The position numbers and the translations under genes are program-made. Below, piece by piece: positions 8,646 to 48,854 of a stretch of DNA of 64,000 nucleotides. The stretch comes from Ectocarpus siliculosus (Eukaryota; Sar; Phaeophyceae; Ectocarpales; Ectocarpaceae), in the NCBI GenBank assembly GCA_000310025.1, contig FN649739.1, positions 796,550 through 860,549 of the forward strand. The letters run 5' to 3'. Each line of letters starts with the position of its first letter. Position 1 is the first letter of the stretch. The notes below the pieces were generated by a model. That model was not told where the DNA came from. It did no database searches and saw only the letters and a list, made by a program, of their open reading frames with translations.

Positions 8646-10784
8646 ATGGCACGCACTCCAGGAACCCACCCTCGCCTTGCGTCGCTCTACCTCCTGGTAG
8701 CCGCTACCGCGGTCGTGCTGTACGCCGACGCGCAGCTTGAAGAGTGCACGGAAGCCGCAGTCACACAGGCATGCGGTGAGTAGTGAAACTGGCGAAACTC
8801 CAACACGCTGAAGTTTGTTTCTTCTTGATCAGGTGGAGTGGGGGAGTGGCTGACCGCCCCCAGGCGCTCCAAACGGGGTTGGAATCACGCCGACGAACCA
8901 ACCCCTTGGACAGAATAGGGGTGCACGGGGATAAGTGCTTGGTGCAGAAAATAACTTGGTATGCAGCACTGCTGCTGTAGCCCGCCAGCGTCGAGTCGAA
9001 TGGTTTTTGCGTGCACACGACGTTTTCGCTTTGCAAGATCGCAGTTGCGTATGCATAGCAGATACGCACCATACCTATTGTGGTGTGTATTGGATAGCTA
9101 TTCGCGAAGTTGGAAATCGTCACTCGTAACCCCAGGAAGTGTGTAAAGCCTGGTCGCGTAGACCCCGGACGAGAAGAACCCCCCCCCCTCCCTGCCGGGT
9201 CTTGGAAAGAGCGTGAAAATTCGAGCTTCTTCCAAGTGTTGGGCCTCTTGAATGTAGTGGTACTCCTTCACAACGGTAGCACACGTGCGTTTTTTTTTTT
9301 TGTCCCCTCGGGGACGGATCTCGCCAAATTCCGTTTTATATACAAGAAAAGCATAATTGAGAACACGGCTCGTGTCACACCCGTTGGAAGCGCTGGAGGT
9401 ACAGAAGTACGTGGTTCATGACGCAAGACGAGCAAGACAGGTACGCAGAGTACTACCAGAGCACCGAAGAGCCATTTCTTCCAACGCAACAGCTGTAAGC
9501 AGCATGTTGACCCCTGCCTTGTTCAATTCCTCCCCGCCAACAACCCAACCCGTTCTTTCAGATGAGAGCGCCATCTGCCTCCAGTGCACCGCCGTCATAA
9601 CGGGCGGGTCTTTCTCGGACTGCCTGTCGGGCATCGACGCCACGATCGGCTCCTGCGAGTTCACGGAGCAGGCGGCGTGCTGCTTGAACGAGGTCTCCGG
9701 CATCGACTGCGTGAGCGACCTGGCTACCTTCGAGTTCTTCGAGTGCGTCTACGACCTGGCCGCGCCGTGCGACGTGAGCCTGACGTGCAGCGGCGACACG
9801 ACCCCGGCGCCGGCTGCCGCTTCCGGGACGGGCACGCCTGTCGCCGGTGGTGGCGGCGGGGCTGACACCCTTGCACCTACACCCGCCGCCGCTGACGGCG
9901 GCAGCGGCAGGCCGACTGCGCCAACCGCTGCGCCCGCCCCTGACGACGGCCGGCCTGCCCCGCCCTCGGAGACCTCCGCGCCCGCTGCCGCCGGCGGAGC
10001 TGAGACCATGTCGCCCGCTGCTGCCGCAGACGGCGGCATGCCCGGTGCGCCCTCGGATACCACCGCGCCCGCTGGTGCCGGCGGAGCTGAGACCATGATG
10101 CCGTCTGCTGCCGCAGACGGCGGCATGCCCGGTGCGCCCTCGGACACCACCGCGCCTGCTGCCGCACCGGCGGCGGACGGAGCTGAGACCATGATGCCCT
10201 CTGCTGCCGCAGACGGCGGTAGGCCTGGCGCGCCCTCGGACACCACCGCGCCCGCTGGTTCCGGCGGAGCTGAGACCATGATGCCGTCTGCTACCGCAGA
10301 CGGCGGCATGCCCGGTGCGCCCTCGAATACCTCGGCGCCCGCTGCGGCCGGTGGTGCCGAAGGGACCGTGATGCCCACTTCCGGAGACGGTGACCGTGCG
10401 TCGGACATCACACCCGCCCCTTCTTCTTCTGCTGGTGCTGCTACGCCATCCGCCACTACGATGACTTCGATGACTGGCGAGGGCGAGACGATGTCCCCGA
10501 CCGCCACCGGCGACGGCGACCGCGAGTTGGACATCACCCCCTCCCCCGCCGCTGGCGGCGGCGGCGGCGGCGGAGGCTCTACTCCCACCGCTTCCGACGA
10601 GACCATGGCGCCCACCAATGCTGCGGGGGAGGTGGGCAGCGAAAGCGTGGCGCCGACCGCCCTCGGAAACGCTGACGACACCGACACGACCTCGGGGGGG
10701 CGCGGCCTGTTCTCGACGAGTGTCGGAGGCGTTGTGACAGGCCTACTCGCGTTCTGCACCGCCGCCGTCGCCGTGGTTGTGTGA
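8646..10784 (+). CDS. Family member B: secreted Cys-rich head with long Ala/Pro/Thr stalk and GPI-type tail
   Basis: Two exons, 8646-8775 and 9562-10784, join in frame (1 + 2 nt) to give 450 residues. Exon 1 encodes a signal peptide (MARTPGTHPRLASLYLLVAA, then ADAQ) and ends QAC plus one base before GTGAGT. Exon 2 follows the acceptor CTTTCAG. The head has motifs ICLQC, FSDC, CEFTEQAACCLNE and GIDCVSD. The stalk (about residues 125-400) contains units built on ETMMPSAAADGGMPGAPSDT, then a Gly run and DDTDTTSGGRGLF. It ends with a hydrophobic segment (VVTGLLAFCTAAVAVVV) and stop, with no cytoplasmic tail, which is typical of a GPI-attachment signal. The likely location is the plasma membrane or cell wall, where the stalk could be heavily O-glycosylated or hydroxyproline-modified. 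The biochemical role is unknown. The intron is homologous to the intron of member C. Confidence 0.85.
9985..10400 (+). repeat. Coding minisatellite in the stalk of member B
   Basis: Four to five imperfect units of about 84-96 bp each encode a version of ETMMPSAAADGGMPGAPSDT followed by an Ala/Pro/Gly linker. Unit length is a multiple of three, so copy-number change would not break the frame. Confidence 0.8.
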
Positions 10785-12336: not shown

Positions 12337-13192
12337 TCAAGTTCTTTGCAACGCGCCCACGAGCGCGAAGAAAGCAACCACCATTATTGCCGCTCGGCCA
12401 ATGGACACCGGCCGCTTCCCGCTGCCCGCAGCACTCGTGTCGGAGGTGGAGGTGGTCATCGTCTCCGTGTGCTTGCAAGACAGGCTTGAGCAGGCCTGCT
12501 CGCTGGCAGCCTGGACGATACACTCCGAGTACGAAACGAACTTCGGGTTGGCCAGGCAGTCGTTTGGAGACAGCACGTCGAAGCAGCACGACGTCGCCGA
12601 AACCGCCGAGCAAGTGCCCGCGTATTCGTAGCTGCGCGGGCGAAGAGGGGCGCAGAGCACGCCACAGAAAGAACGACGGCAAAATGATGTCTTCGGTTTA
12701 CTTGATTGCGCGACGGTTATTATGTAGCAATCGCGGCGTGTAGACTAACGACCCGGCAGTGGGGATTGAATGGGGGAGAGGGCCGGCGGGTATATGGTCG
12801 AGAGGGGCCGAGTGCGGCCGTGCCTTTTTTCTTACCTCGCGAGGCACGACTCCCACTCCAACTGCTCCTCGCTGGTGGCTTCAAGGCGGCATTCCTATTC
12901 ACCGTCAGAGTCATTAACATCCGGAGCGGCACCAGTCACAAAAAAAATAGCCTATTCGCATAAGAAAAAAAGTTAGTTAATGAAATGTTTGGCGGGCGGG
13001 GTTAACCTTTTATTGCGTGTGTCGCGTCTTCTTGCCCAGCCGAAAGCTTGAGTGACTACAACTGGTGCAGTTGAAGAGACAAGAAGCAATCAATTGCACC
13101 TGACACTCTCTATCCGCCGCACAGGCATCCGCCGCATCCTCGCATCCTGCAAGCGAGTGGGCAAGAGAGCGCGCGTGAGAAAATAGACTACT
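12337..13192 (-). CDS. Family member F: divergent Cys-rich protein with C-terminal hydrophobic tail (partial model)
   Basis: The last exon, 12337-12631, follows the acceptor CCCGCGCAG. It encodes the second half of a family-type head (CSAVSATSCCFDVLSPNDC, then SYSECIVQAA, then CSSLSC), a short Thr/Ser linker (TETMTTSTSDTSAAGSG) and a hydrophobic end (AIMVVAFFALVGAL) before TGA. A candidate upstream exon begins after the acceptor CTTGCAG at about 13192. It encodes CEDAADACAADRECQ, the kind of Cys spacing expected for the first half of the head. I could not find a donor in matching phase joining the two, nor a signal-peptide exon, so the 5' part is unresolved and the gene may be broken. If real, the head is split by an intron absent from members A-E. 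Confidence 0.5.
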
Positions 13193-22310: not shown

Positions 22311-23580
22311 TTGGTTCTGGACGCTGATTGGCCTATCTGTCGCTGACACTCTGTCGGTCTCTCTCTTTCTCTCTCTCGTCGCCTCCAGCATCGGCCACGA
22401 CGCGCTTTGTACCAATACAAATGCTGGTACACATGAGAGGGTTCATGACCTGAGAGGGTTTTTGATTCATTTCGAAGCTCGTACGCTCAAATTGTGTGAG
22501 CGCACACGTCACCGGAAACTACTACTGCATAGTTTTCATGAGCGGGTGGGTGGTGGGGGCAGTAGACTACATATGCATACACATACATAATAGATAACAT
22601 GCGTTGCACTTTACATAAACTACTACGTTGTCGAACTAGAGAAATTTCTGCTTGAGAACTACAATCACGTCATCAGCGGATGGTGTCCGGCTCAAATGAC
22701 AATAGAAGAGTGCAATTCATCTATGGCCCAGATCCGAACGGAAAAGGGACAAGATGATGGGGCATCCTGCGCTTCATATTTTACCCGAGTCCCTCTCATT
22801 GCTTCGGCTGAGAGGGAACCATCAGGGCTCGACTACAGCAGCACCACATGACACAACCAGATAGATACTGTAACACATCCTTCGCAGTATATATGCAGTA
22901 CAGAAGTATTCACTGTGGTGTTTAGTATAGATTGGGCTTCGAAACGATTCAAGTGCTAAGCTACTGTACCAAGATGTAGCTCCATCCGCGAGATTCCTCC
23001 GTGGGCATCCACAACATATTCCTAGCGCCCAACCACGAATCGTCGTTTACGGTTCCCCATTTGCTCCATTTGTCTTACAACCAAACCATGGTTCTCAAAA
23101 CAAGCTCACACACAACAATAGTCTACATATTGAATAACAAGTCATTTTACCTTCAAACAGTGATATGGAGCCCAAGGGCCTCTGTCCAACAAACCCGCCA
23201 ACTCCCACTCCCACCGGCTGCGTAGAACGTTTTGTTACACGTGCAACTCCGGAAAACCTGCATCCCAAGGGAGCAGGGGTAAAGGCGGGCCCGATCACAC
23301 CAAGGAGGCTGGACGCCGATCACGTACTCGTACAACGGGAAGGAATCTCTGACATATCGAAACAAAACATACTAACGCTGTAACGCATGGGTCACACTCC
23401 AGTAGCGCGTAGCCAAGCCCGATGCTAATCTGCGGTCGAGAACCCATCCCAGAGGGCCCTTCAGCAAAATCTGCTCACTACTGTACACCCTCGAACCCTC
23501 AACCAAAGTCCCGATTCCCACTAAACTAACATCGGAACACGACAATGCACACGCGCCAGCAACAATCCTACAAAGCTCCA

Positions 23581-25567
23581 TTACACAACCACGGCGGCGG
23601 CCGAGAACGCGAGCAGGCCTGCCACAACGCCTCCCACAGTGGTGACGCTCGACGACAGGAGGCCGCGTCCCCCCGATGTCGTGTCGGTGGCGTCACCGTC
23701 TTCGCCCTCGCCGACGGCGGTCGGGGCCGCGCTAGTGTCCACCCCACCCGCAGCACTGGTGGGCGCCTCGGTCTCGTCAGCTCCGGAAGCGGTAGGGGCG
23801 GAACCTCCGCCGGCTTCGCCGGTGGCGGGGGAGGGGGTGACGTCCAAATCGCGGTCGCCGTCGCCGGTGGCCGTTGGCGCCATCGTCTCACTCTCGCCGG
23901 CCATCGAAGTAGTCGTAGTAGTAGCGGACGGCATAGCAGCACCAGCAGAAGAAGAAGGGGCGGTTGTGATGTCCAACGCGCGGTCGCCGTCTGCGGAACT
24001 CGGGGCCATGGTCTCATCTCCGCCGGCCGAAGTCGTAGAAGCAGTCGGCGCGGGCGACATGCCGCCGTCGGTGGCGGAGGGCGCCATGGTGTCACCTACG
24101 CCGGCAGAAGTCGTGGTAGCAGTCGGCGCGCGCTCCACGCCGCCGTCTGCGGAACTCGGGGCCATAGTGTCATCTACGCCGGCAGAAGTCGTGGAAGCAG
24201 TCGGCGCGGGCGACATGCCACCGTCGGTGGCGGAGGGCGCCATGGTGTCATCTACGCCGGCAGAAGTCGTAGCAGCAGTCGGCGCGGCGGGCGCCGCGGT
24301 CTCAGCCCCGCCGCCACCGCCGGCGACAGGCGTGTCCGTCCCGGAAGCGGCCGGGGCCGGGGCCGGGGTCGTGTCGCCGCCGTTGGTGGTGTCGCCGTTG
24401 CATGTCCAGCCCCCGTCGCATGCCTCTGTCGGGTCGTAGAGGCACTCGAAGAACTCGAAGGTAACCGGGTCGCTCACGCAGTCGATGCCGGAGACCTCGT
24501 TCAAGCAGCATGCCTGCTGCTCCACGTACTCGCAGGAACCGAACTCGGCGCCGATGCCCGCCAAGCAGTCCAGGAAAGAATCGCCCGAGGTGAAGGAGGT
24601 GCACTCGAGGCAGACGTCGCTCTCAACTGAGAGACAGGTTGTTGGCGGGGGGGAATTCGACAAGGCAGGGTTCAACATACTACTACTGCTACAACAGCTG
24701 TTGCGTTGGAAGAAACGGCTCTTCGGTGCTGCTGACACTCTTACACCTGTCTTGTTCACCTTGCGTCATGAACTCTTTATCTCCAGCGCTTGCAAGGGGT
24801 GTGACAAGAGCCATGTTCTGTTCGAGGCTCTTCTACATAACCTAAAACGCAACTTGGAGAAATCTGACGCCGAGGCCGAATAAACGTACGTCCCGAAGGA
24901 GGACCACTACATTTAAGAGGCGACACACCTCGAAGAAGCTCGATTTTTCACGCTCTTTCGAACACCCGGCAGGAGGGGGTGAGCGCTTCTCGTTCGGGTC
25001 CCGCGCGACCAGGCTTTACCCTCCCCTGGGGGGTTACGAGTGGCGTTTTCCAATCCAAACGCTACAAACTCCTATTTACTAACACACACCGCATTGATAG
25101 GGTGCATATCTGCTACGCAACTGCGATCTTGCTAAACCGGACGTCTAAACAATGTGCGACGCGACATGGCCATGCATTCCCAAAGCAAAGCGAGAAGGTC
25201 GTGTGTTCGCAAAAAATATTGAACTCGACGCTGGCGGGCTGCACCAGTAGTGCTTCATACCAAGTTATTTTCTGCACCAAGCAATGCTCTCCGTGCACAC
25301 CCATTCGTTTGAAGGGGTGGGTGGGTACGTCGGCGTGATTCCAACACCGTTTGGAGCACTGGGGGGCGGTCAATGTTCAACCCCCATTCCATCTGATCGA
25401 AAACAAACAAAACTCATCGTGCCCGAGTTTCGCAAGTTGCACTCACCGCATGCCTGTGAGGTTCCCGTGCAGTCTCTCTGCGCGTCGGCGTACAGCACGA
25501 CCACGGTAGCAGCTACCAGGAGGTAGAGCGACGCGAGGCGAGGGGGGGCTGCTGGAGTGCGTGCCAT
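23581..25567 (-). CDS. Family member C: secreted Cys-rich head (B-like) with T/A/P stalk and GPI-type tail
   Basis: Exon 1 is 25567-25447 and exon 2 is 24626-23581. The donor GTGAGT and acceptor TCTCTCAG join in frame to give 388 residues. The signal peptide (MARTPAAPPRLASLYLLVAA) ends ADAQ. The head carries VCLEC, FLDC, CEYVEQQACCLNE and GIDCVSD and is closest to member B, as are the signal peptide and the intron. The stalk has units of about 26 residues (DTMAPSATDGGMSPAPTAST and variants), then GDRALDITTAPSSSAGAA and DTTSGGRGLL. The end is hydrophobic (GGVVAGLLAFSAAAVVV) with no cytoplasmic tail, indicating a GPI signal. From the start of the stalk to the stop and beyond, it is almost identical to member D. 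The likely place is the cell surface; the biochemical role is unknown. Confidence 0.85.
23975..24300 (-). repeat. Coding 78-bp minisatellite in the stalk of member C
   Basis: Four imperfect units encode (G/V)DDTMAPSATDGGM-type blocks followed by APTA(S/T)TTSAG. The same unit is present in member D with one more copy. Confidence 0.8.
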
Positions 25568-28500
25568 GACTGGAAAAGAAGGCCTGTCTTGGGGAATAGA
25601 GAGCAGGGTGCTGCTCTGTGTGAAGCAGCAGCAGCACAACAAGACGAAGGCGGAGGATTAAGTTAAGCGCACGCAGCGACGGCCTGTAGCGACAACAACA
25701 AGCACGCACACACGGATATGTAAAGCAAGAATGTCAAGATCGCTAACGTTCACGTTGGTGGTTTATCACCGAGCGTTAACACCGTATAGTGACAAAACAG
25801 CGTTGAACGGTGTATCGCAAATGGCACAGCTCAGGATAATGGGTTACTGAAACACAGGGAGGCAACGCGCAGGGTCACTGGCACGCGAAATGTAATCATC
25901 ACAATAGTAGCCTGTGATAAGGCTGCTTTAGCAAAAATAGCGAGAGAAGAGGAAGTGCGATCACGGCCACGGAAAGGGCCAAGCCGTAGCGTAGCTGTAA
26001 GACAACAGAACGGTGATTTCGCACCCTGAGCATCAAAACCCTAGCGACAAGACAGGGCCAAGGGTGAGAGAAAGAAAACGTTGATGCAAGAAAGAGTGAC
26101 ACAGGGAAGCTGCGGAGAGTGGTAGGGGGTCATCCCAAGCGACAAAGAATACTATTGTTCTGTCCTCCGGCACGAGGGAAGTTGATATCGTCGGGTTTGC
26201 TCAGCGTTGTAGCTAATGCATCTAGCGATGAATATTCGAAGGAGCGGGTTGTACCGTAAACTACGAAGTTTTCCCCCAGGGGAGGGGATCGTTTTTTTTT
26301 TCTGAAACCAACCCCCCCGGGGGGTAATTGACGTACCGGGGGGGGTTAGTTTTTTTTTTTCCAACGGAACCCCAGGGGGAAGCCCCCCCCCCGGGGGGGT
26401 TGTGCAAAATTATGATGGTCCACACACCACACACACACACACACAGAGTGGCGAACCTGAGATGGACAAGGTTTTTGTCGGGTCGCAAGAGAAGTACCAT
26501 TGCCTAAGCTCATGCACAAGAATTCGCAGTTTGTCCGCAGGAATAAGCTATTTTTATGGTTTGGTTCTACGTTCCTTTAATTGTGAGATCCAAAAATGAA
26601 TACGCGATTATTTGTTCCCTTTATGCGGAAGGTTTCATCAGCATGTTGAGGTACGTTTCAGCTCACTCCAGGGATGATAAATGCAAGAAACAGACAGGAA
26701 AACGAGAGCATGTCACCCATAAAACAACTGCGAGGGCCAAGTGACAAACGGTACACCTAAATCTCGCTCAAAGCGCAGATCTGCAAATGAATTTTCCGTC
26801 CCATACCATGCTTTTGCTCCGCGATGCAACAAAATCGACTAAGAAAATAAGGGAAACACATCCCCCCTGGGAGGAACTCGTGCGAAACTGGTACCCCGGG
26901 GGGAAATTGAAATACCCGGGGGGAAATTGTTTTTTTTGGTCGAAAACGATCTACCCTAGGGCTAAATCGACGAAACCATGCTTCCAGGCCGAAAAGGTGA
27001 TGAGGGGGGGGGGGATCTGTACTAGGGGGGGGGAACTCCGTAGTTTACGGTATGTGGTCACGATCGACCAAGCGCTGGGGAGAGGCAGCGATTCTCGACT
27101 CCCGAAGAGAGAGACGTGGCCATGCACACAGAGCACAACAATATTCTTTGAGGCCAGAATTCGAGCCTCCGGAGGGTGGCGACATTTGTTTTTCATCTCA
27201 GACGGACACCGACAAAGAAGGGGTACCTTCGCAGTAAAAAAAGGGTTCCCGGTCGTCGTCTTAAGAGCCAGGGAAGGAAGTGCGCTCGCGGTAAAACCGC
27301 TTGCCTGGCTCCTCTCGCACGACCAAATGAAAGAAAAAGGGTGGTGGAATGAAGGGCGTGCGCATTTCAACACACGTAAGCCCACCAATCAATCTGAAAA
27401 GCCGGGTGAGCAGGGGGGTCTTGGGCTGGGAAAGATAGACAGATATCCTTGTAAAAATTATATGAGAACCACAAAGTGAAACAAACGGTCGCCCAATGGT
27501 GCTTTGAATTTCCGAATCCGACTACGAACAACCACAGCTGTGAGTGAAAGCATCCCACCATGGCTCACTGCTGTGGATAGCGTCGAAAAAAAATGAATTT
27601 TATTATTCCGGGATTGTCACTCTTGCAACTAAATGAAATCGGTACCCACCACCACATAGACTACCTACACTAGCGAATGAATATCATATGCTACGCGTGG
27701 TGGTCAAAATTTATTACGTCTACCCCACTATTCAGCATATACGTACACGTAGCAAGAAAAATGAACACTCACGAGGCTGTAAGAGTACCCGCCTCCCCTC
27801 GACCGCCAGGCGGCATGCACCAATGCGTGCGGGAAAAACGAAAAATAACGGGCACCTTTTTTGGAAGTCTTTAATAAGGCTGCGGTATAAGTCACGTTAC
27901 ACTCAATATCATCGTTGGCGGAAGACCTCTTCTGCAAGAACATCCTTCACAACTTCACAACCACGCCGGGTTGTTCTGGTCGGCTCCTCTGCTGGTTGTA
28001 TGCATACATGCATGAACGTATGCATACGCGTACCAGTACCTACGGTACGACGTTACTGCTGTAGAGTACTCTTTATGCATAGTCTAGACTCATGTAGGCT
28101 TGGCCCGCCGCCCACGGTGAACTTGTTCTGCCTGTGGTTCCGATGATTCTTACAATGTTTGCCGGGCGATTCTCCTCATCCAAGCACGCGTGTGAGAAGA
28201 GTGAGGCGTGTGGTGCGTGGTGGCTGTCGGGCGGTTCTTGATTCGTTGGGTTTGAAAAAATTCAAACAAGTTGTCCCGGAAGGTTGCAATGCCCTTTGTG
28301 CATTCTTATTCTTTAGTACCTGGTATGCATCATGGAACAGACGTCCACACGTCGCTCTCTTTGGGCAGCAGTGAACACGGCAGCGCTAGAAAAAATATGA
28401 CACCCAGTGTTTAAGCCAACCTCTATGCGGGCACTCTTTAGGACAAGGACGAAGGAACGTGATCCATTCGACAACAACCCAACAACCCGGTCCGTGGAAT

Positions 28501-29640
28501 TCCAACGGTACTCTTTGCGGTAAGCTGTGCAAACATCCACCAATCCACCAAATCGTGACAAGATGCACAAGCAGACAGTCTTCCGCGGCAAAGCATCGTC
28601 CAAGCAGGGTTGGGTCTACCCGTGAACAAGAAACAAGCACCGACGACTCTCGGCTGGGAACTCAGTGTGTGTAGGGCAGCTTGTGAGACCGCAGAATTTC
28701 GCTTCTTTCGTTTATTGAACCATCCATGTGAACCAGTTTTGTGGTGTTATGTAGGCAAGGAGATATTTGGGTGGAGGTCCACGTTTCGAGGCTGTGGGGG
28801 GAACACATAACGAACGCAGTAGCAGCAACAACGACAACATCCATCAAGACAACGTATAGCAGCAACAACCAGTCTCCACAACACAGTACGCCATGCCCCC
28901 CACGAAGAGGGAGAGGGGTTACAACTACTTGGTGAAGAGATTCGTGCCTGTGTTACTTGAAAAAATTGCCCCGAGACCTGCAGCTATGTATGTAGTTTGC
29001 TGCAGTCTGTGCAAGTCTATGCATACATCCACCAACGGCCGCGGGTTTAGCGGAAAGCATACGCCCCCCTCCTTCCTAAACGCATAGCGCATGCATAGAT
29101 GGACCACGGAAAAGGTGTAGAACCATGCCCCTACGTACCTCGACCCAGCGCATTTCGAGTTGTGAACTGTGGGCGCAGCTCCATCTCAGTCATACAGCAG
29201 ATGATGCTTCTGCATGAGGTGCAGGCACCACACACGCACACCAAGAGCCTGACGGCACATGTGTAGGCCGCGAAACGAAGGGAACCAGCTCTTACCTGGG
29301 AGCTGTGGGGTGATCCTCGGCCGGTCCTACGAAGAAAAGCGCCGTGTGTGTGGTGGTGTCGTGAGGATGAGAGCCGAGGGTGAAAGGCGGCAGAATGTGC
29401 ATGTATGGTGTGGGCGGCGATGGGGCGAGACCCGTTCCACCCAGCGGGAACAGAACAGAGTCAAGATCGCCAGGCGTCCGTGGGAAACACCCAGCGAAAT
29501 TTCTTAGAAGCCAAAGAGGAGCCTTCGGTAACGCTCTTCAGTAAACAAGCTAAAGAGCTGTTGAGCTGGAACGGCAGTTATTCTGATGTAGTGGTCAACA
29601 GCAGTCTGCAGTGTGTGCGTTCTACTGCTGTGGGCTATGT
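25568..29640. other. 5' intergenic part of duplication copy 1
   Basis: No supported gene. Conserved with copy 2 at DNA level, but the frames are not conserved, which argues against coding. It contains the foldback element at 26252-27052. Short open frames sharing GRPNPAW and HDLVDWWMFAQL (28438-28629 and 36055-36282, minus) are the only protein-level similarity between the copies outside C/D. They may be a small exon or chance. Confidence 0.45.
26252..27052. mobile_element. Foldback TIR element with TA flanks, absent from the duplicate copy
   Basis: The left end TACCGTAAACTACGAAGTT is matched by the inverted right end AACTCCGTAGTTTACGGTA. Inner arms also contain inverted G- and C-runs (26280-26400, 26870-27030). 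The flanking dinucleotide is TA at both ends. The corresponding place in copy 2 (about 34047) runs GGGCTCGGGTAGTCAC without the roughly 800 bp, consistent with insertion at a TA after the duplication. No transposase is encoded, so it is probably a MITE mobilised by a Tc1/mariner- or PIF-like enzyme elsewhere. Confidence 0.65.
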
Positions 29641-30804
29641 TGGTTCTGTAGGTTTTGGTCGCTGTCTGTCTGTCTGTCTGTCTCCCTGTCTCGTCGCCTC
29701 CAGTATCGGCCACGACGCGCTTCGTACAAATACTACCGGTACACATGGGAGAGGGTTGTTGACCTGAGAGGGCTTTGAAATGAGCTCGTACGCTGATTGT
29801 GTCACCGGAAACAAAGTATAGGAGACTACGTTGCACATGACTTCCGTTGTCGAACGAAACCGATTTCTGTTTGAAAACTACTACGTACCACGTCGTCAGT
29901 GGACTGTACGTTCAAATAATAACAACAGATACACGCGGTTCTCAGCGCAAATCATCCGTGGCCCAGACCCGCAGGGAAAAGGGACAAGATGACAGGGCAT
30001 CCTGAGCAATACATTTGACCAGAGTCCCTCTCTTTGCTTCGTCTGAGGGGGAACCATCAGGGCTCGACCACAAACACACCAGCAGCACAGAACAGTACCA
30101 CAAGATCAATTTGCAACACAACCCGAAGAAACTACACATGTACTTCAAATACATACGTTGCTCAAGTTCTAAGGTACCAAGATGTAGCTCCATAAAGATT
30201 CCTCCTTGGGGACCCAAACGATATTTTACCTCCCAAACACGTAGTATACCATCGTTTACGTTTCCCCATCCTCCATTCGTGTAAAATCCAAACCATGGTA
30301 TGCATACTCCAAACAAATAAATGTTACTACTGTACACGCAAGACATGATAGAAATTGCGGCATTCTACCTTCAAACGATGATACGGAGACCAAGGGCCTC
30401 CGTCCAACAAACCCGCCGAGCTCACACTCTCACCACCTGCGTAGGGTATATATGCAACTCCGGAAAACCTGCATCCCAAGGGAGCAGGGGTAAAGGCGGG
30501 CCCGATCACACCAAGGAGGCTCGCCGCCTATCACGTACTCGTACAACCACGGGAAGGAATCTCTGACATACCGAAACAAAACATAATAACGCTGTAACGC
30601 ATGGGTCACACTCCAGTAGCGCGTAGCCAAGCCCGATGCTAATCTGCGGTCGAGCAATGATATCAGAGGGCCCTTCAGAAAAATCTGCTCACTACTGTAC
30701 ACCCTCGAACCCTCAACCAAAGTCCCGATTCCCACTAAACTAACATCGGAACACAATCCAGAATCACAATGCACACGCGCCAGCAACAATCCTACAAAGC
30801 TCCA

Positions 30805-32832
30805 TTACACAACCACGGCGGCGGCCAAGAACGCGAGCAGGCTTGCCACAACGCCTCCCACAGTGGTGACGCTCGACAACAGGAGGCGGCATCCCCCCGA
30901 TGTCGTGTCGGTGGCGTCACCGTCTTCGCCCTCGCCGACGGCGGTCGGGGCCGCGCTAGTGTCCACCCCGCCCGCAGCACTGGTGGGCGCCTCGGTCTCG
31001 TCAGCTCCGGAAGCGATAGGGGCGGGACCTCCGCCGGCTTCGCCGGTGGCGGGGGAGGGGGTGACGTCCAAATCGCGGTCGCCGTCGCCGGTGGCCGTTG
31101 GCGCCATCGTCTCACTCTCGCCGGCCATCGAAGTAGTCGTAGTAGTAGCGGACGGCATAGCAGCACCAGCAGAAGAAGGGGCGGTTGTGATGTCCAACGC
31201 GCGGTCGCCGTCTGCGGAACTCGGGGCCATGGTCTCATCTCCGCCGGCCGAAGTCGTAGTAGCAGTCGGCGCGCCCGCCATGCCACCGTCGGTGGCGGAG
31301 GGCGCCATGGTCTCATCTCCGCCGGCCGAAGTCGTAGTAGCAGTCGGCGCGCCTGCCATGCCACCGTCGGTGGCGGAGGGCGCCATGGTCTCATCTCCGC
31401 CGGCCGAAGTCGTAGTAGCAGTCGGCGCGGCCTCCATGCCACCGTCAGTGGCGGAGGGCGCCATGGTGTCATCTACGCCGGCCGAAGTCGTCGAGGCAGT
31501 CGGCGCGCCTGCCATGCCACCGTCGGTGGCAGAGGGTGCCATGGTCTCATCTACACCGGCAGAAGTCGTAGATGCAGTCGGTGCGGCAGGCGCCGCGGTC
31601 TCAGCCCCGCCGCCAGTAGCGGAAGTCGTAGCAGGAAGAGATGGCGCCGGGGTAGAACCGGAGGCCGAGGTTGTGGAAGGGTCGCCGCCACCGCTAGAGC
31701 CGCTGCAGGTCCAGTTCTCCTCGCACTGGTTGGCGTCGTCGTACAAGCATTCCATCAATGCAAACGTGGTCGGGTCGTTGATGCAGTCGAGGCCTGACGC
31801 TTCGTTGAAGCAGCAAGCGAATTCCTCGTTGCTGTCGCAACTGTCGTCCGTTGTAGGGATGGGGAGGTTGTCAAGGCAGGTAAAAAACGCTTCGCTGGTC
31901 GAAGTTTCGAAGCACGCCGCGCAGGTCTCACTTTCAACTGCAAAAACGCGTTGTTGCAAAGTTGTTGCGAAGAGATCGAAGGCGAGGGCGGCGGCGGGGG
32001 TCAATGCACCAATGGAAGAGGAAGTCGATACAACCTCCGCTTTAGCAGACTTGCGAAGCTAAATAGCGTTGACTGCGTAGTTTGTTGATGTTAAAGGCCG
32101 CATCCGTACGAAAAAGGCACAAGACAAACCTCCAGTAAAACACTATTTGACACCTCAGCATCGGGCACCCATCGCCGAACACGCCGACAAGAGCGTCGAT
32201 ACTACAGTATTTGCCACAAGAACTACTTTGGTACCCAGAAAGCCATCTCCTCGGGCCAATACGATTCCACGGGAGTCCGTTGCGTGCGGAGGGTTCCGCC
32301 TCCCAGTACCCACCCACCCACCCACCCACCCACCCACCCACCCCCAGAACACGCTTGGGATGCGAAGGGGTCTCAAAACGCTTTTAATGAATCAAATACC
32401 CATAGAACTCAAAAGTATCCACGAGCATCGTACTGGTGTCGTGCGTGCGGTGACCTTGCGAGCATGTGCTCCCTACGTTTCAACTGCTCGAGAGCTACTA
32501 TCGCTCGGACCAGGCAGGCCATGCGCAAAACAATTTCATTTCACCACGGCATCTTCTTCCGCGACACGGACAACGAGCACGTATATGTGGGTACTCTACT
32601 ACTGTGACTGTACCTTGTTTTTAGTCAGTAGACTACGCCCCCCCTCGGTCTATCAACAACCAACAACCGCGGGCGTACTTCACACGCTGTACTCACAACA
32701 GGCTAAGTTGAATTCGTTGCAGTCCCGGCCGCTGTACTGTGCGTCGGCATGCCGGACCACTGTGGTAGCGGCGCCGAGGAGGTAGAGAGATACAACCCCG
32801 AGACGAGGGAGTGCTCCTGCAGTGCGGGTCAT
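30805..32832 (-). CDS. Family member D: secreted Cys-rich head (A-like) with T/A/P stalk and GPI-type tail
   Basis: Exon 1 is 32832-32697 and exon 2 is 31937-30805. The donor GTGAGT and acceptor TTTTTGCAG join in frame to give 422 residues. The signal exon (MTRTAGALPRLGVVSLYLLG, ending ADAQ, then FNLAC) matches member A. The head carries ETCAAC, FFTC, EEFACCFNEASGLDC and CEENWTC, also A-like. The stalk has five units of 26 residues (GGDETMAPSATDGGMAGAPT and variants), then the same GDRALDITTAPSS block and GPI-type end (GGVVASLLAFLAAAVVV) as member C. The intron also matches intron 1 of A and contains a (CCCA)n tract. A chimera between an A-type head and a C-type stalk is the simplest reading. 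The likely location is the cell surface; its role is unknown. Confidence 0.85.
31200..31620 (-). repeat. Coding 78-bp minisatellite in the stalk of member D
   Basis: Five near-identical units, each GCCGAAGTCGTAG-rich on the plus strand, encode DETMAPSATDGGM-type blocks on the minus strand. One more unit than in member C. Confidence 0.85.
32309..32345 (-). repeat. (CCCA)n microsatellite in the intron of D, G-rich on the sense strand
   Basis: Nine CCCA repeats on the plus strand read as (GGGT)n in the sense of gene D, so the intron RNA has several runs of three G spaced by one U. That pattern can form a G-quadruplex. Confidence 0.85.
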
Positions 32833-35800
32833 GACTGGAAAAGAACGCTGGTCCTGGGATATAGAAAGAAGGGCGCTGCTCTGTGTGGACCTTGTGTGCA
32901 CGATTGACAACGAAGCAGCAGCAACAGTACCACAAAACGAAACGAAAGCAGAGGGAAAAACTAAGCGCACGCAGCGACGGCCTCAGGCGACAAAAACAAG
33001 CACAAACACACACACAGGATTAGTGCGGTCGATGCAAATAAAACGAACACACAGACGGGATCTCATAGTAGTGCAGATAAAACCGATCATGATAGCAATG
33101 AGGGGAATTCGTTTGGCAGCGATGAAGGAGGAGAACAGGGAACGGGAGGAGTACAAGAACACAGAGACCAAGACAGCAGTCGAGGAGGGGATCATGGCGT
33201 GGAAGAGAGCAAGATCTTCGAGCCAGATAATCTTCCCCATAACGAACGACGCAGGGCCAGAGAAGAACTGCCGAAAAAATACTGTTAAAATGATGATGAG
33301 AATGGTGACAGTGAAGCAAGGAGGGATGATGGTGAAAGCACTCCAAAACGAACGTGGAGCGCAAGGTAGCAGCCTTGGTAGACGCGTGCAATTTTCTTCT
33401 GTTGCTACATACCGTTTCTGTCTTCATCCGGAGAATAGCTTAGCCTCCCCCATGCCGTCCCCTCACGGGGCCCCAGTTAATGGAAAGTTTATGAGTGTTT
33501 TGTGCTTTCAACCGCACTGAGACTAAGTCTTTTCGTTGGTCAGCCGGTTAGCGCGGTCGATGCTACACAATAATAAAGACACACACACGGATGCGTCAAG
33601 GCAACTCGTAGGGTCACTGGCACGCAAAATATGGCCTTTGAGAGGCAACAAAACCAAATACCACGCGAACAGTTCAATCGGCATCCTCACAAGGTATTTT
33701 TAGCCCTACCACACTCTGAGAGAGAAAATATTGCAAGAAAAACGGCAGCGCTACCACGGCCACGGAAAGGGCGAAGCGTACAATAGCGCAGCTGAAAGAC
33801 AACAGACCGACGATTTCACACCCTGAGCAATAAAACCCCAGCGACAAGACAGGGCCAAGGGGAAGAGAACGAAAACGTCGAGGCAAGAAAGAATGACGCA
33901 GGGAAGCCGCGGAGAGCGAAAGGGGGTCATCCGAAGCGACAAGAATACTATTTTTCTGTCCTCCGGCGCGAGGGAAGTTGATACCGTCGGGATGGCTCAG
34001 TGTTGCAGCTTTAGCGTCTAGTGGTGCATAGTCGATAGGGCTCGGGTAGTCACTATCGACCGTTGCACGCGCTCGGGAGAGGCAGCGATTCTCGATTCCC
34101 GAAGAGCGAAGTGGCCTATGCACACAGAGCGTAACTATTTGGCCCAAGGCCAGACATCGAGTCGATGACCAAAAAAAGTGGACTGACTGCTGTTGTACAG
34201 TGGACATGACACCATCTCGGGATTCCATGGAACAAAGCAGGCAAACCGCGCTAAATGTATGGTCACCTTTTCCCGCTCGACGGGTGGGCTGCACCTCTTG
34301 TTTGTCTTATGTTGGAAGCTAGAGATGGAAGAACGCTGAAAGGTACGCGCACGAAGAACGATTTTCAGGCCGAAGCGCACCTGCTCCTTCTACTACTGTA
34401 GACTACACAAAAAATGGCAAAATGTTGAAAATTCGACACCGAAGCAAAGCGTGGCTCGTCGTCCCACAACAACCCAAAACGTTCATAAAATGACAATGCA
34501 CACACGAGATCATCAATTATTGCTTCGTCTTCGTTAAAGATCCGACAACCTTTGCCGCCAGTGAGCGCCACAGAGACACGCACGACGACCATGACGGCGC
34601 CATTCACACCCATCTAGCCAAGCAAAGAGCCTCCCGACGGTGGCGATATTTGTTTGTCGTCCCAGACGGACATCGAAAAAGAAAGGGTGGCTCGCAGCAA
34701 AAAGGATTTCCGATCCCGACTTTGTTGACGGGGAAGGAACGCGCTCGGGTTGAAATCGCTTGCTTGGTTTGTCTCTCGCACGACCAAATGAACAAAAGGG
34801 TGGTGAAATGAAGGGCGTGCGCGAAACGCATTTCAACATACGTAAGCCCACCAATGTGTAAACCCCGGTGAGCAGGGGGGTGTTGGGGAAAAATAGACAG
34901 GGATCACTTGCAAAAATCTGAGATCCTCAACATGAAATAAGCAGTCGCCATCCCTGGTGCTTTGGATTTCCGTAGCTGACTACACAGTACGACCAACCAC
35001 CGTTGTGAGTGAAGATAGTCAAAGCATCCAAATGGCGCAATGTACTTGTAGAACTAAGTCGGAAAATTTGGGGATTGTCGCGGGTGCCTGCAACAAAATG
35101 AAATCGACACCCACCATGTACCGTATATGACACAAGATAACACACCCCCTGGACCGATTTCCAAAGCTCGATTACTCCACGACGAAGAGGATGCACAAAC
35201 AAAACGATACATTTTCGAAAATTTCTCGACGAGACGATTCCAACGCTGCCGTTTTCGGCGCCGTGACTCTTCCTGCTGTTGAGAAATCGAGCTTTGAAAA
35301 TCGGCCAAGGGGGTGTGTTATCTTGTGTCATATACGGTAATATTAGCGACGTAAAATGAAATTCACATCTCCGCGTGGTGGTCTATGCATTACTTCTACC
35401 CCACGATACAACGTAGTACACGCGGCAAAGTAAAAAAAACACTAGTGCCGCCGTGGATCTCGTGATGTTTTATACGACGCCCCTACCTCAGACCCTCTGG
35501 CGGAATGTACCGATGTGTGCGGGAAACGAAATAATCCGGCACCTTTTCTGGAGGTTTGCATGGTACAAATACACTCAACAGTTGACGGAGGACCTCTTAT
35601 GCGCGAATACTCTTCACAACTTTACAACCACACAGGGTTGTTTGGTCGACTCCCCTGCTGGTTGTATGCCAGTGCGGTATACAAATACTACTGTACTTGC
35701 TGTACATGTAGTCTACCTGTTTTGTTAGACTCATAGACAAGCAGGTGTATGTAGGCCTGTCGCACATGGTGAACTTGTTGTGCCTGTGGTCCCGATGATT

Positions 35801-37350
35801 CTTCCAGTGTTTGCGGCGCGATTCTCCTCATCCAACAGCACGCGTGTGAGGATACTGCTGTTGCTCTGGTGTGGTTTTTGGGTGTAGGCGGTTTCTTGAT
35901 GTGTTGGGTTTCAAATTTTCAAACAAGTTGCCCGGATGTGGGTGCATGCTTACTGCAACAAATCGACCCGCCGCCCCCTTTGGCAGCAGCGAACACAGCA
36001 GCGCTAGTAAAATCGTGACACGCAGTGTTTAGCCAACCTCTATGTTGGCACTCTTTAAGGACGCCAAGGACGAATGTGTGATCCATCCACCCAAGATTGA
36101 GCCCGCGCGGGCAAGCCACAAAAAACACAACCCGTCCGTGGAATGCCATCGGTGCTCGCCATCAGCTGTGCAAACATCCACCAATCCACCAAATCATGCC
36201 TCAACTCATGACGAGCTGTACAAGCACGCAATCTTCCGCGGGAAAGATCCTTCCAAGCAGGGTTGGGTCTACCCGTGAACAAGATACAAGCACCGACGAT
36301 CTCGGCTGTGACCTCAGGGTCGGTGGTTCGGTACTAATTTGAGACCGCAGAAATTCGCTTCTTTCGTCTTTTGAACCACTACGTGGTGTGTGTTGTGAGG
36401 CAAGGGGGTATTTGGGTGGAGGTCAACGTTTCTAGGCTTTCGGGGGGAACCCATAACCAAGGTAGAGGCAGCAAGTTCGACAAGAAACATCATCAAGACA
36501 ACGCATAGCACTAACAACCAGTCTCCACAGTAGCGCCATGCGCGCCACGAAGAAGATTTCAACCACATAGACCATGGCAGCTTGTGTACTCGTTGTAGAA
36601 GATAACCTGCCTGCGTGTTCAGGGAAAAAACTGCCGACGACCTACATCCACCAATGGCCGCGGGTTCAGCGGACAGCATACGCCCACCTTCTTCCTAAAC
36701 GCAAAAGAGCATGCATAGATAGACCACGGCAAATGTTTAGACCCATGTCCCTACCTACCTCGACCCAGCGCGTTTCGAGTTGTGACCTGTGGACGCAAAT
36801 TTCTATCTCAATCACGCAACACCAGCATGCTGCTGCTGCTGCTGCATGATGTGCAGGCACCACACAAGCACACAAAAGCCAAACGGCACACGTAGGCCGC
36901 GAAACGAACCAGCTCGTACCTAGGAGCTGTGGGGTGATTCTCGGCTGATCCTACGACGAAGGCGGTGGTGTGAGTGGTGGTCGTGAGGATGGGAGCAGCG
37001 GGTGAGAGCGACAAGAATGTTGTATGATATGGTAGGGCGGACAGACCTTTCCAGCAAGCGGGATCAGAACAGAATCAATGTCGCGACGTCCGTGGAATAC
37101 CCAGCGAAATATCTGAGAAGCGAAAGAGGAGCCTTCAGGAAAACTTTTCAGTCAACAAGCTGTTAAGAGCTGTTGAGCTGGAAGAGTGGGTAGAATGGTC
37201 AACAGTCGGCAGAGTGTGCGTTGCGGGATTGAGGGGAGAGTTGCTAGAAGTCTTCCTTGAAAAAGGCGCGACAAAGCCCGGCTGCAGGTGTATTCCTCTC
37301 GGTGCCTCTCTCTCTGCCTCTCTCTGAGACGGTATGTCCGTGTCTGTCTG
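32833..37350. other. 5' intergenic part of duplication copy 2
   Basis: No supported gene. Homologous to 25.57-29.64 kb, but without the element at 26.25-27.05 kb and with a different inverted-repeat insertion at 35119-35339. A 232-codon plus-strand frame at 32822-33520 lacks any domain and overlaps the likely 5' UTR and promoter of D, so I do not call it. Confidence 0.45.
35119..35339. mobile_element. 221-bp inverted-repeat MITE with TACCGTA ends
   Basis: Terminal inverted repeats of about 50 bp: the left TACCGTATATGACACAAGAT is matched inverted by ATCTTGTGTCATATACGGTA at the right. They continue inward through GATAACACACCCCC and CGATTT...AAAGCTCGAT. The flanks carry TA at both ends. Copy 1 of the tandem duplication (near 27650) lacks it. 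It has no coding capacity. It shares the terminal TACCGTA with the element at 26252-27052 and may use the same transposase. Confidence 0.65.
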
Positions 37351-38137: not shown

Positions 38138-38436
38138 TGTAAGATATACTCGTAGCATAGTAATGTGGTTGAATATGAGGCATGGATCTACGGAGATTGC
38201 AGGTGGTAGACTGCGGAGGAACAGGCAGTTTCTGCTTGGTTTCTTCGGAGATTCGATGAGTAATCTGAATTGCGTGACGGATAGGTGTGGTGACGCTCTC
38301 TTCGGTTGCTCGCTCTCTATTGTTCTCTGCTGTTCCCTCTTCCCTCTAATACAAGACTTTCCCATCTCGGCCTTCACTGGCCGAGTAGCCTTTCTCCACA
38401 AACCTACAAGCTTCGGCCTACCCGGTTTATCCAACA
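38138..38436. repeat. Left LTR
   Basis: 299 bp, TG...CA ends, nearly identical to 40904-41202. The 5-bp sequence TGTGT lies immediately before it. Confidence 0.78.
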
Positions 38437-40903: not shown

Positions 40904-41202
40904 TGTAAGATATACTCGTAGCATAGTAATGTGGTTGAATATGAGGCATGGATCTACGGAGATTGCAGGTGGTAGACTGCGGAGGAACAGGCAGTTTCTG
41001 CTTGGTTTCTTCGGAGATTCGATGAGTGATCTGAATTGCGTGACGGATAGGTGTGGTGACGCTCTCTTCGGTTGCTCGCTCTCTATTGTTCTCTGCTGTT
41101 CCCTCTTCCCTCTAATACAAGACTTTCCCATCTCGGCCCTCACTGGCCGAGTAGCCTTTCTCCACAAACCTACAAGCTTCGGCCTACCCGGTTTATCCAA
41201 CA
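40904..41202. repeat. Right LTR
   Basis: 299 bp, preceded by a G-rich purine tract and followed by TGTGT, the matching target-site duplication. Confidence 0.78.
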
Positions 41203-45472: not shown

Positions 45473-46790
45473 CTACACAACCACGGCTGCGGCAGCGGCG
45501 CAGAACGCGAGCAGGCCCGTCGCGACACGGCCGACACTAGTCGAGAACAGGGCGCTTCCCCCCGAGGTCGTGTCGGTGTCCTCGCTATCGCCGCTGGCGG
45601 TCGGGGCCACGCTAGCGCTGACCGTTAGCTCCGAGGGGGCAGGCGTGGGCGCCGCGGTGAAGCTGCCGCTGCAGGTCCAGTCGTCGTCCTCGCACGAGTC
45701 GGTGGTGTCCCAGAGGCACTCGAGGTACGCGTACGTCACCGGGTCGCCGACGCAGTCGTTGCCCGACGCCTCGTTGTAGCAGCAGACATTGTACTCCGCG
45801 TATTGGCACACGAAGAGGTCCGAAGGGAGTGCCGATTCGCAGGCCGCGTAAGCCGGCTCGCTCGTGGAAGCAAGGCACGCGCTGCAGAAATCGCTCTCGT
45901 CTTGTTTTTTCGTTTTGTTGCAGTGACGTTGTCGAATCGGCCGTGGTTGGTCGACACACCAACCGGAGGGAGGAAGAGCAACAGGATACCGTGGCGTTGG
46001 GGGACAGGGGACAGGCCTTAGAACAAGGGTTTCTGGTGCGACGATTGTTGTTCGTGTTGAACAAAAACAAAACGCCAAGATGAACGGTATTGACGGCGAT
46101 GGAAGCTCGTGGGACAATCCCGGCGCTAGGGCAAAAACCCTCACTAAGATAATGTCCTGCCAACACTGCGGAAAAACAACACAATGAAGCACGACCCCTC
46201 TTGTCATTGCTGAGTCTCGGAGGTAAAAAAAGCAAATCACGTTCAAGGAGTACAGTGGCGCTTCGAAAACGAAGAAACACAGAGGAGCTGTGTACATTCT
46301 CGCATTCCTGCAAAGCTGGCGGATCGCCGGCTCTCCCCCCAAAACCACTTACGGTACCAACGGGTTTCCCTTCCGGAAAACACGGCATGCATTTTTTTCA
46401 CGCACGCCGAGCAGGCGGTGTGCCCGCTCTCGACGGTCTATGAACCCTACCCTGCTCCGTTCTTGTAGACACACAGACCCCGGTTTAACTCACGAACCAG
46501 GCGGCAATAATAACTGTCATACATTTCCGAGCGGGCGGTGCGGTGGATCGAATGGACCTAAATACTTCACGCCCCAACAGTCGATCGAGAACACGAAATC
46601 AACACCTACTTGTAGTAACCGCGATTTCGTCCATGCTTCGCGAGGTCCACTCACCGCAGGCCAGTAGGAGGTCACTACAGTCTCGGGACTGCGCGTCAAC
46701 GCGCAGCACCACTGTGTTTGGGGCGCTCAGGAGGCAGAGTGTTGCAACCACGAGCACGAGGCGAGGGAGTGCTGCCGGGGAACGTCCCAT
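45473..46790 (-). CDS. Family member E: short secreted Cys-rich protein with GPI-type tail
   Basis: Exon 1 is 46790-46655 and exon 2 is 45900-45473, in frame (1 + 2 nt), 187 residues. The signal peptide is MGRSPAALPRLVLVVATLCL, ending VDAQ, then LLLAC before GTGAGT. The acceptor is AACAAG, with a poor pyrimidine tract, but it gives exactly the family join DESDFC. The head has FCSAC, AAC, VCQYAEYNVCCYNEASGNDC and CEDDDWTC. The stalk is only about 35 residues, without repeats (TPAPSELTVSASVAPTA), then DTDTTSGGSALF and a hydrophobic end (GRVATGLLAFCAAAAAVVV). It is the minimal form of the family, so the long repetitive stalk is dispensable. The 3' flank is homologous to those of C and D. Confidence 0.8.
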
Positions 46791-48783
46791 GGCTTGGGAA
46801 GGAAACCACGCCAGGTGCGGGTGGACGTTACGCTGAGATCTCAGTTGGCGAGAGGGCTGTTTGGTGTGGACCACTCACTCCCTGGTAGATGCAGCAGCAG
46901 CAGCAGCAGCGGCAGCGGCAGCAGCAGCACACAACATCATTGGAAGCAGAGCGCAACGCACGAGTTCGAGTGAGAAAACACACACGCACACACGGATGTG
47001 TCTGTCACAGGCACAATCATATCAGCAGTCTAAATATTGCAGCTTTCGGAGGCGTGTGAGGTTCATCACTGCACGAAACGGTTTCATCGACGAAACGGCG
47101 CTTCGACCTCAGGGTGTGTTGAGTAGCTTTGTGCGTGGGTGCCTCGGCGCGGGGTCCCGTAGTGGGAAACAAAAGGTGCCAGCAGCTGGGTACTGCCAAC
47201 GGTCAAAATGTAGAAACTATCCGCGGGCGTGAAAGCCCTTCTACGTGGTGGAGCGTGGAAGCTCGTGTATAATATAGTTGTGGCGTGGAAGCCGGGTGGC
47301 GTGGTGGCCCTGATGTAAAGGTATATGTAGGGACGTGGGAGTCCTGAAGGCGTGGAAGCCGGGTTGGCGTGATAGCCGGAGTATGGGCGTGGAAGCCGGG
47401 GTTGGCGTGAGAGCCGGGAAAAGGACTTGATTATACACAGAAAAAGGAAGTGAGGAACCACAAGCCACGCACACAAATTCCGTTGTAGACACCCATACCC
47501 TCAAACCTGCAATATGTGATAAAGTTGGTACCACCAAATCTAATCCATAGCAACCATTGAACCCCCAAACTCCCCGCTCCATCTGCTCGGGAAATTCTTG
47601 CTCGCAATAATCTGTTGATGCTGTGAGTACATCCAACAGGGTGTAAGGTTCCTGACACCGGGGGGGCATTTATGTCACACGAATTGGGCACGATCAATGC
47701 ACCAGGCAGCGTGTCTGACCCAGTGCATGAACCTTCAATATTCCTACCGTTATCTGTAGTCGGAGAATTTGGCACCCACGTAGGACTGGCGTGCGATACA
47801 TCTCGCTGCTTTGGCTTTTGTTCGTACCGCATGGTGCCGAGTGTGCGGTACATGGACGCACGCACTAACGTCGGCCTTTTCTCTCCAGCTGGTGATACCA
47901 TTTTTGCTGCTTCGTGTGCTTCTACTCGTCATTCAGCTCCCCCCATGTGGCACGGCACGCGTGTATGCTTCAGGTGATGGTGACTGCTGTGTCGCAACTG
48001 GCGATACTGGCTACAGAGCGCCGGGATTCTCGGCCGCTGTTTTCCCTTCGATGCACCCCAATCTCTCGTATCCGAAAAAGCGAGTGGGCCCGCGGCGCAG
48101 TTGAGGCGCGTCATCGGGCGGTGCTCAAAGCTCAAACCTTGTAGAATCAATAACAAAATTATCCTGGCCCCTTTGTTGTTGTTTTGCCTTCACAGAACAA
48201 ACGGTTTCGGTCCTGCTAATATCATACCTCGTAACACCCACGCCCGTCCAACTGACGCGGACGCCTTCGGTGCTCTTAGGCCAGCTATCGCAAAAAAAAA
48301 GAAAATATATTATATATCGAAAAAACGATGCAACACAGACCGAGAAAAATCCTCAAACAAGCGCGTCGTCATTAAAAACAAACCGGTGGAAGAACGGACC
48401 CGGAAAAAAAATGTAAGAACCGAACAGAAAACAGCAGGAAGGCCCCATCGAAGCAAAATAGAGAAAAAAAGGAGAGCCCAACGTTCTCCTGTTGATCCGC
48501 TACAACTTCCATGACGAAGCTCAAGACCCCGTAGGTTAGATGCGGGAGTCACCGGGCTTGCCACGGGGTACCGTCGAGGCACGCGATACCAAGGAAAAAC
48601 AGTAGAGAAGAATCAAAGATAACCAGTCAAGATCTTCTGATGGCTTTAGCATTTTTGTGACCACGGGCCGAGTCTTTGCTAGATTTTGGGATTAGCAACT
48701 GACACGAGTTTAATGTGAAGAAAAACAACACAACAACAAGTCAACAGAACCATCCCAAGAAGGATAAAAATTTTGCGTCACAT
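46791..48783. other. Interval upstream of member E
   Basis: No supported gene. It contains a CAG-rich stretch (46889-46930) resembling that upstream of C, a minisatellite with GCGTGGAAGCCGGG units (47240-47420), and an A/T-rich stretch (48290-48330). Frames of 101-156 codons at 47.4-48.5 kb have no recognised domain. Confidence 0.45.
47240..47420. repeat. Degenerate minisatellite, GCGTGGAAGCCGGG units
   Basis: GCGTGGAAGCCGGG(G)TTGGCGTGA(T/G)AGCCGG and shorter forms recur about six times. Confidence 0.7.
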
Positions 48784-48854
48784 GTCCAATCCGAGAATCG
48801 AACTCGGGTTTCCACAGCCACAATGTGGTGTACTGACCACTATACTAATTAGAC
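48784..48854 (-). tRNA. tRNA-His (anticodon GTG)
   Basis: The minus strand folds as a full cloverleaf of 71 nt. The acceptor stem GTCTAAT pairs with ATTGGAC (one G-T). The D-arm has AGTATAGTGGTCAGTAC. The anticodon stem CCACA/TGTGG holds the loop TTGTGGC, with anticodon GTG. The T-arm is CCGAG-TTCGATT-CTCGG. There is no intron. Eukaryotic tRNA-His normally receives its extra 5' G after transcription, which fits its absence here. It stands alone, away from other tRNAs. Confidence 0.93.

Follow-up and report, generated by a model that had tools for sequence, protein, structure and literature searches.

The window analyzed here, a 64,000-nucleotide stretch of the genome of the brown alga Ectocarpus siliculosus (GenBank assembly GCA_000310025.1, contig FN649739.1, positions 796,550 to 860,549, forward strand), contains a cluster of five related genes, termed A to E. 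Their products follow a common plan: a signal peptide, a Cys-rich head, an Ala/Thr/Pro-rich repeat stalk and a glycosylphosphatidylinositol (GPI)-like tail, replaced in A by a transmembrane tail. The neighboring genes C and D form a mosaic pair: their stalks and tails are near-identical, and the head of C is of the B type, that of D of the A type, as a sequence-only reading of the locus had proposed. Recombination among paralogues is strongly supported as the source of this mosaicism, and so is the exchange of one head cassette for another while flank, stalk and anchor stay in place. Its probable form is non-allelic gene conversion among the clustered surface-protein paralogues, in which C would have been re-headed by a B-type donor and the stalks of C and D homogenized afterwards.

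Mosaic structure of genes C and D

From the ATG to the head, C groups with B and D with A. The identities in exon 1, intron and head are 90%, 79.7% and 82.4% for B/C and 72%, 62.3% and 66.5% for A/D; C and D are 45.3% identical in the intron, no better than A and B (43.0%), and 56.4% identical in the head. The informative sites are distributed over AD|BC, AB|CD and AC|BD as 21:0:1 in exon 1, 129:2:3 in the intron and 36:0:2 in the head. In the four-gene approximately unbiased (AU) test, both alternatives to AD|BC are rejected in each of these three segments (p<1e-4), the values for C and D as sisters being 5e-5, 2e-11 and 4e-7, respectively. When E is substituted for A, both alternatives are still rejected in exon 1 (0.009, 0.021), and in the head C and D as sisters are weakly disfavored (0.035). 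Noncoding and synonymous sites give the same signal as coding DNA: the C/D heads have a synonymous divergence (dS) of 2.56, which is saturated, and a nonsynonymous divergence (dN) of 0.48; between B and C, the divergence K of the intron is 0.202 and the head dS is 0.143 (0.059-0.255), with no significant excess of dN (0.202, Fisher p 0.35).

The topology changes at the ATG and again at the stalk. The switch sequence GGCGGGGCTGAGACC begins at 24,312 in C and at 31,611 in D, in the same short stretch of both genes, as had been noticed before. C and D reach 96-98% identity from the C-terminal half of the stalk to 339 bp beyond the stop codon: the value is 97.5% over the final 480 nt of the reading frames (Kimura two-parameter distance, K2P, 0.026) and 96.1% between the 3' flank of C (23,242-23,580) and that of D, and dS in the last 158 compared codons is 0.008. 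The near-identity had first been read as beginning with the stalk; the first ~300 bp of the shared stalk (24,000-24,300) are a repeat array in which C and D are just 87-89% identical. The tail topology is CD|BE (14:0:0 informative sites), B and C as sisters being rejected (AU p 0.007). The 3' edge of the tract at 23,242 is sharp (chi2 81.9 versus a maximum of 16.0 in 200 permutations).

C and D lie in adjacent units of about 7.3-7.6 kb each, in direct orientation. The K2P distance between the left and right units is 0.186 (27,676-29,621), 0.185 (27,163-27,548), 0.183 (25,930-26,239), 0.206 (5' untranslated region, UTR) and 0.233 (22,650-23,240), i.e., similar on both sides of C/D (K 0.183-0.233). 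The C/D divergence is not uniform: K is 0.026-0.040 inside the tract and 0.18-0.23 in the unit flanks. Since the former is far below the latter, the stalk and 3' flank would have been homogenized after the duplication, and the near-identity of the stalks, first read as merely the untouched part of the two genes, points to a separate, later event. In a search of the genome (189 Mb, 492 contigs), the left-unit stretches 27,100-29,650, 22,620-23,580 and 25,568-26,240 match elsewhere the right unit only, at the sensitivity of the search. The introns and flanks of C and D returned 3, 1, 3, 3 and 2 matches, each a family locus or the twin unit; an origin of these similarities in dispersed repeats is rejected, the sole match outside the window being a second copy of B. 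A dispersed block at about 26,252-26,999 was left out of the duplication.

Upstream of the ATG, the C/D likeness returns (5' UTR K 0.206). The sharp difference described upstream of the switch therefore holds up to the ATG and not beyond it, and the divergent part is a bounded cassette. In the upstream 180 bp, AB|CD is favored by 8 sites versus 3 and 1 (AU 0.015 for each alternative), and the 250 bp upstream of C give z scores of 26 with D, 7 with A, 6 with E and -0.3 with B. With B and D taken as parents of C, the sites at which C=B, C=D and B=D number 8/59/15 upstream, 37/7/4 in exon 1, 307/34/56 in the intron, 70/11/15 in the head, 29/172/32 in stalk and tail, and 6/127/3 downstream of the stop; the maximum descent for the C mosaic is 266 versus at most 50 in 2000 permutations. 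The C cassette is bordered on both sides by sequence of the probable recipient's own history, a D-like 5' flank on one side and a D-like stalk and 3' flank on the other, its right edge being overlaid by the later C/D tract. The flank and 3' UTR of B, the putative donor, are unlike those of C: the proximal 3' UTR of B scores z 14.7 with E and 2.5 with C, the latter within the range of 200 shuffles. The A/D likeness runs through the ATG at a steady K (5' UTR 0.341, exon 1 0.360, intron 0.354, head 0.407).

The sequence-only reading had left the choice between conversion and unequal recombination. B (+) and C (-) lie in opposite orientation, and C resembles D in both of its flanks; simple unequal crossing-over therefore does not account for the transfer from B to C, and conversion is favored. 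The C/D pair is in direct orientation, yet the tract that it shares is bounded on both sides, which is not the mark of unequal crossing-over.

Proposed order of events and alternative explanations

How the sequences relate, where the edges lie, how the divergences compare and how the genes are oriented is observed; we infer conversion as the mechanism, the order of events and the direction from B to C, and likewise the surface location, the GPI anchoring and a role of the head as the binding part. A unit of ~7.3-7.6 kb carrying an A-type gene would have been tandemly duplicated, yielding C and D (K about 0.19). At about the same time as the duplication or slightly after it, judging by the B/C divergence (intron K 0.20, head dS 0.14), a B-type donor would have replaced ~1.26 kb of C, beginning at the ATG, taking in the signal exon, intron and head and ending early in the stalk; C would have retained its own 5' flank, stalk, tail and 3' flank. 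Later, a second conversion, in either direction, would have homogenized C and D over the stalk, the tail and 339 bp of 3' flank. The outcome would be two neighbors alike in stalk and anchor, related in their flanks and unlike in their heads. The likely recipient is C, whose flank is like those of D and A while its cassette is B-like, and the likely donor is a B-type gene. The A-type head of D looks native to the duplicated unit: since A and D diverged before the duplication, a later transfer of the head from A to D is unlikely. Head replacement with retention of the stalk, first proposed for both genes, probably concerns C only. The B-derived tract would end before the tail, since B/C dS is older in the C-terminal stalk and tail (0.467, 0.325-0.641, 152 compared codons) than in the head, the intervals being apart.

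Several points weigh against this reconstruction. The data are one assembly of one strain, and DNA sequence alone. The B-to-C transfer and the duplication overlap in age, so that either of the first two steps may have come first. The plain K2P distance of the B/C tail (0.184) is close to that of the head (0.202), making an end of the cassette before the tail invisible by this measure, and the dS argument is weakened because the stalk's synonymous sites, being part of GC-rich repeats, may have a higher mutation rate. The upstream comparisons rest on short alignments; identity there depends on the method, one alignment placing A closer to C (60.2%) than to D (51.6%) and another the opposite, and with E substituted for B the C+D grouping is not significant (AU of the alternatives 0.19). 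The A/D intron K of 0.354 is near the aligner noise (0.491 for A against a shuffled D intron, 0.457 for A/B), and the D intron used as a genome query recovered itself only and not the A intron, though A/D pieces are found locally. Finally, with E substituted for A, the AU test on the intron rejects C+D (0.008) and B+D only at 0.057; the head is weak, C+D giving an AU value just under the usual limit with Kishino-Hasegawa 0.074 and Shimodaira-Hasegawa 0.078, and B+D being retained (0.22).

Among the alternatives, the one that survives best, though unlikely, is that the full body of B, from ATG to stop, was copied into C, and that C then gave its stalk, tail and 3' flank to D. Both C and D would then be mosaics, and an earlier anchor of D, perhaps transmembrane like that of A, would have been replaced. 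The B/C similarity indeed spans ATG to stop and ends at both, and the B/C K2P distances are alike in intron, head and tail (0.18-0.20); the dS difference between the C-terminal codons and the head, given above, speaks against this reading. Still less probable is that D rather than C was re-headed, the duplicated unit having held a B-type gene and an A-like gene having overwritten the 5' half of D. This would give the same mosaic alignment, and C is B-like along its entire open reading frame. The A/D divergence (K 0.34-0.41) is, however, far older than the duplication (~0.19), so that A could be a later donor only if rates differed, and neither the D head (7 of 7 scored candidates) nor the D intron led to a closer A-type gene in the genome. 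Moreover, the A/D likeness passes the ATG into the 5' UTR, the flank of C resembles those of both A and D, and B/C dS is older in the tail than in the head.

An assembly artefact, by which heads or stalks were misjoined at near-identical sequence, is very improbable. The C/D tract, ~97% identical across 0.8-1.1 kb, could mislead short reads, but swapping C and D at the tract still leaves near-identical stalks with unlike heads; the sequence at the ATG edge is not identical (90% between exon 1 of B and C), and both flanks are old. Divergence of the C and D heads by diversifying selection after the duplication, without any recombination, has a negligible probability: the head dN of 0.48 and the fact that heads of recognition proteins are often fast-evolving would suit it, but it is ruled out by intron and synonymous sites, which are just as discordant and show the same B/C and A/D pairing (in the intron, at 129 of 134 informative sites).

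The gene family and its surroundings

The features of the locus are collected in Table 1; the limits first read for C (stop at 23,581, ATG at 25,567) and D (stop at 30,805, ATG at 32,832) are unchanged.

Table 1. Members of the cluster, duplication units and recombinant tracts (positions in the window)
Feature	Position	Strand	Description
Member A	297-2214	+	signal exon 297-435, intron 436-1192, head 1193-1425, stalk, second intron 1766-1954, transmembrane segment, cytoplasmic tail
Member B	8646-10784	+	signal exon 8646-8775, intron 8776-9561, head 9562-9788, stalk and GPI-like tail 9789-10784
Member C	23581-25567	-	signal exon 25447-25567, intron 24627-25446, head 24400-24626, stalk and GPI-like tail 23581-24399
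Member D	30805-32832	-	signal exon 32697-32832, intron 31938-32696, head 31705-31937, stalk and GPI-like tail 30805-31704
Member E	45473-46790	-	signal exon 46655-46790, intron 45901-46654, head 45671-45900, short stalk and GPI-like tail
B-type cassette in C	24312-25567	-	signal exon, intron, head, stalk start; left edge at the ATG, right edge probably near the switch point
A-type 5' half of D	31611-32832	-	reaches to the switch point
Recent C/D tract, C side	23242-23999	-	C-terminal half of stalk, tail, 339 bp of 3' flank; 5' edge blurred by stalk repeats, may reach 24,312
Recent C/D tract, D side	30453-31220	-	unit alignment and edge permutation test
Left duplication unit (contains C)	22339-29621		unit alignment and genome searches
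Right duplication unit (contains D)	29658-37222		unit alignment and genome searches

In all five genes, a phase-1 intron of 754-820 bp separates the signal exon from an exon 2 with ten conserved Cys; exon 1 adds two more Cys to the head. The translations of B, C, D and E, read by eye, display a signal peptide and a C-terminal hydrophobic segment without cytoplasmic tail, the layout of a GPI anchor. Member A departs from it: an extra intron is followed by a transmembrane segment and a Tyr/Pro-rich cytoplasmic tail. A GPI-like tail, noted before for C and D, is thus read in four members and not in A, and A and D combine the same head class with different anchors. B and E have their tail and proximal 3' UTR in common. 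The members are predicted to be located at the cell surface, with GPI anchoring of the four, and this anatomy suggests a disulfide-rich head held away from the membrane by a mucin-like stalk.

As protein queries of the genome, the C and D heads each matched 7 of 7 scored candidates, five of which are members A to E. Beyond these five, the C head matched a distant relative on contig C33 (E 1e-4) and, within the window, a divergent stretch (E 1.2); the two further matches of the D head are weak (E 0.23 and 0.56), with nothing head-like in the open reading frame lists of their loci. The C tail recovered B, D and E besides C (4 of 4 matches, E at 0.035). The relative on contig C33 (locus L014, 1351-1818, minus strand) is a 155-residue frame whose Cys pattern is similar and whose C-terminal tail is hydrophobic. 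Within the cluster, a sixth, divergent member is found at about 12,517-12,744 (-), with a head match (E 7e-5), a short stalk and a hydrophobic C-terminus. The second copy of B (contig C16, locus L022, ATG at 4,616,063, minus strand) is 92-95% identical over the upstream region, exon 1 and most of the intron, and carries several kb of B upstream sequence, about 91-95% identical in longer pieces; its head and stalk are unreadable, making the family count a lower bound.

The Pfam scan of the five member proteins gave no family above the cut-off and three weak ones below it, and the sole PDB match of the head (E 4.9) is not meaningful. In the viral contigs, 41 stretches fit a pattern and none is a relative. 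The six-frame motif scan for heads found no match, its pattern being too strict. Non-specific lipid transfer proteins (nsLTPs) are characterized by an eight-cysteine motif, C..C..CC..CXC..C..C, and include GPI-anchored forms; an nsLTP identity is rejected, as all five heads have a CC pair but no CXC.

Other features of the window lie apart from these genes. A dispersed element with inverted ends (TACCGTAAACTACG) is located upstream of C at about 26,252-27,052, without counterpart at D in the unit alignment; the region used as query gave 72 listed genome matches, its own site included (40 of 106 candidates scored). A 299-bp direct repeat occupies 38,138-38,436 and 40,904-41,202 (99.3% identity), a tRNA-His lies at 48,783-48,854 (-), and an open reading frame read as a leucine-rich repeat (LRR) protein stands near the cluster.

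Possible function and comparison with known systems

One may guess that the head binds a ligand, and that the family has a receptor role or a likeness to antigenic variation or allorecognition. The small size of the cluster and the B/C head dN, not significantly above dS (p 0.35), do not speak for such a system. A bolder, doubtful proposal is a brown-algal cassette system, in which conversion would keep recombining the promoter, head, stalk and anchor (GPI or transmembrane) of a protein for self/non-self, gamete or pathogen recognition, with strain-specific head repertoires. If the heads are binding domains, the locus would offer a concrete route for a brown alga to re-head a surface protein with flank and anchor unchanged; if they are not, it would represent ordinary concerted evolution. 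The breakpoints at the locus are near-exact, and the family is small, with one cluster of five full members, a B copy elsewhere that is partly unread and a few divergent relatives.

No description of such a surface-protein family in brown algae was found in a literature coverage mostly without subscription papers; term searches within PMC4700764 and PMC3879662 likewise turned up nothing relevant. The process is already known; this example is new. Zambounis et al. (2012) reportedly described exon shuffling of LRR-ROCO and NB-TPR genes in brown algae. Candidate recognition diversity in these algae has been discussed, in PMC11378527, for exon shuffling of LRR and tetratricopeptide (TPR) repeats in LRR-ROCO and NB-TPR genes. 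The resemblance lies in what appears to be the same lineage and in a candidate recognition part altered by recombination with the remainder kept. As far as that text goes, however, LRR-ROCO and NB-TPR genes shuffle single LRR or TPR repeat exons, whereas in the present cluster an entire 5' cassette passes from one paralogue to another and the heads match no Pfam family. The Cys-rich EsV-1-7 family (PF19114), expanded in brown algae according to the available portion of PMC7457493, is multi-copy like A to E and present in this genome: all 150 scored matches to its motif, the best 150 of 880 candidates, were above the cut-off, as against none in 14 control genomes. These matches, the introns of 750-820 bp and the LRR frame all fit an Ectocarpus-like brown alga. 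The heads of A to E differ from it in that no Pfam model, PF19114 included, scores above the cut-off. Outside the algae, the closest parallels, judged from excerpts of the two reports, are the Entamoeba Gal/GalNAc lectin genes (PMC3125142) and the Leishmania promastigote surface antigen (PMC2584048), both cases of ectopic gene conversion with exchange among surface-protein paralogues. Both are families of unrelated parasite proteins, unlike the small cluster described here, with one swapped head cassette and one homogenized stalk.

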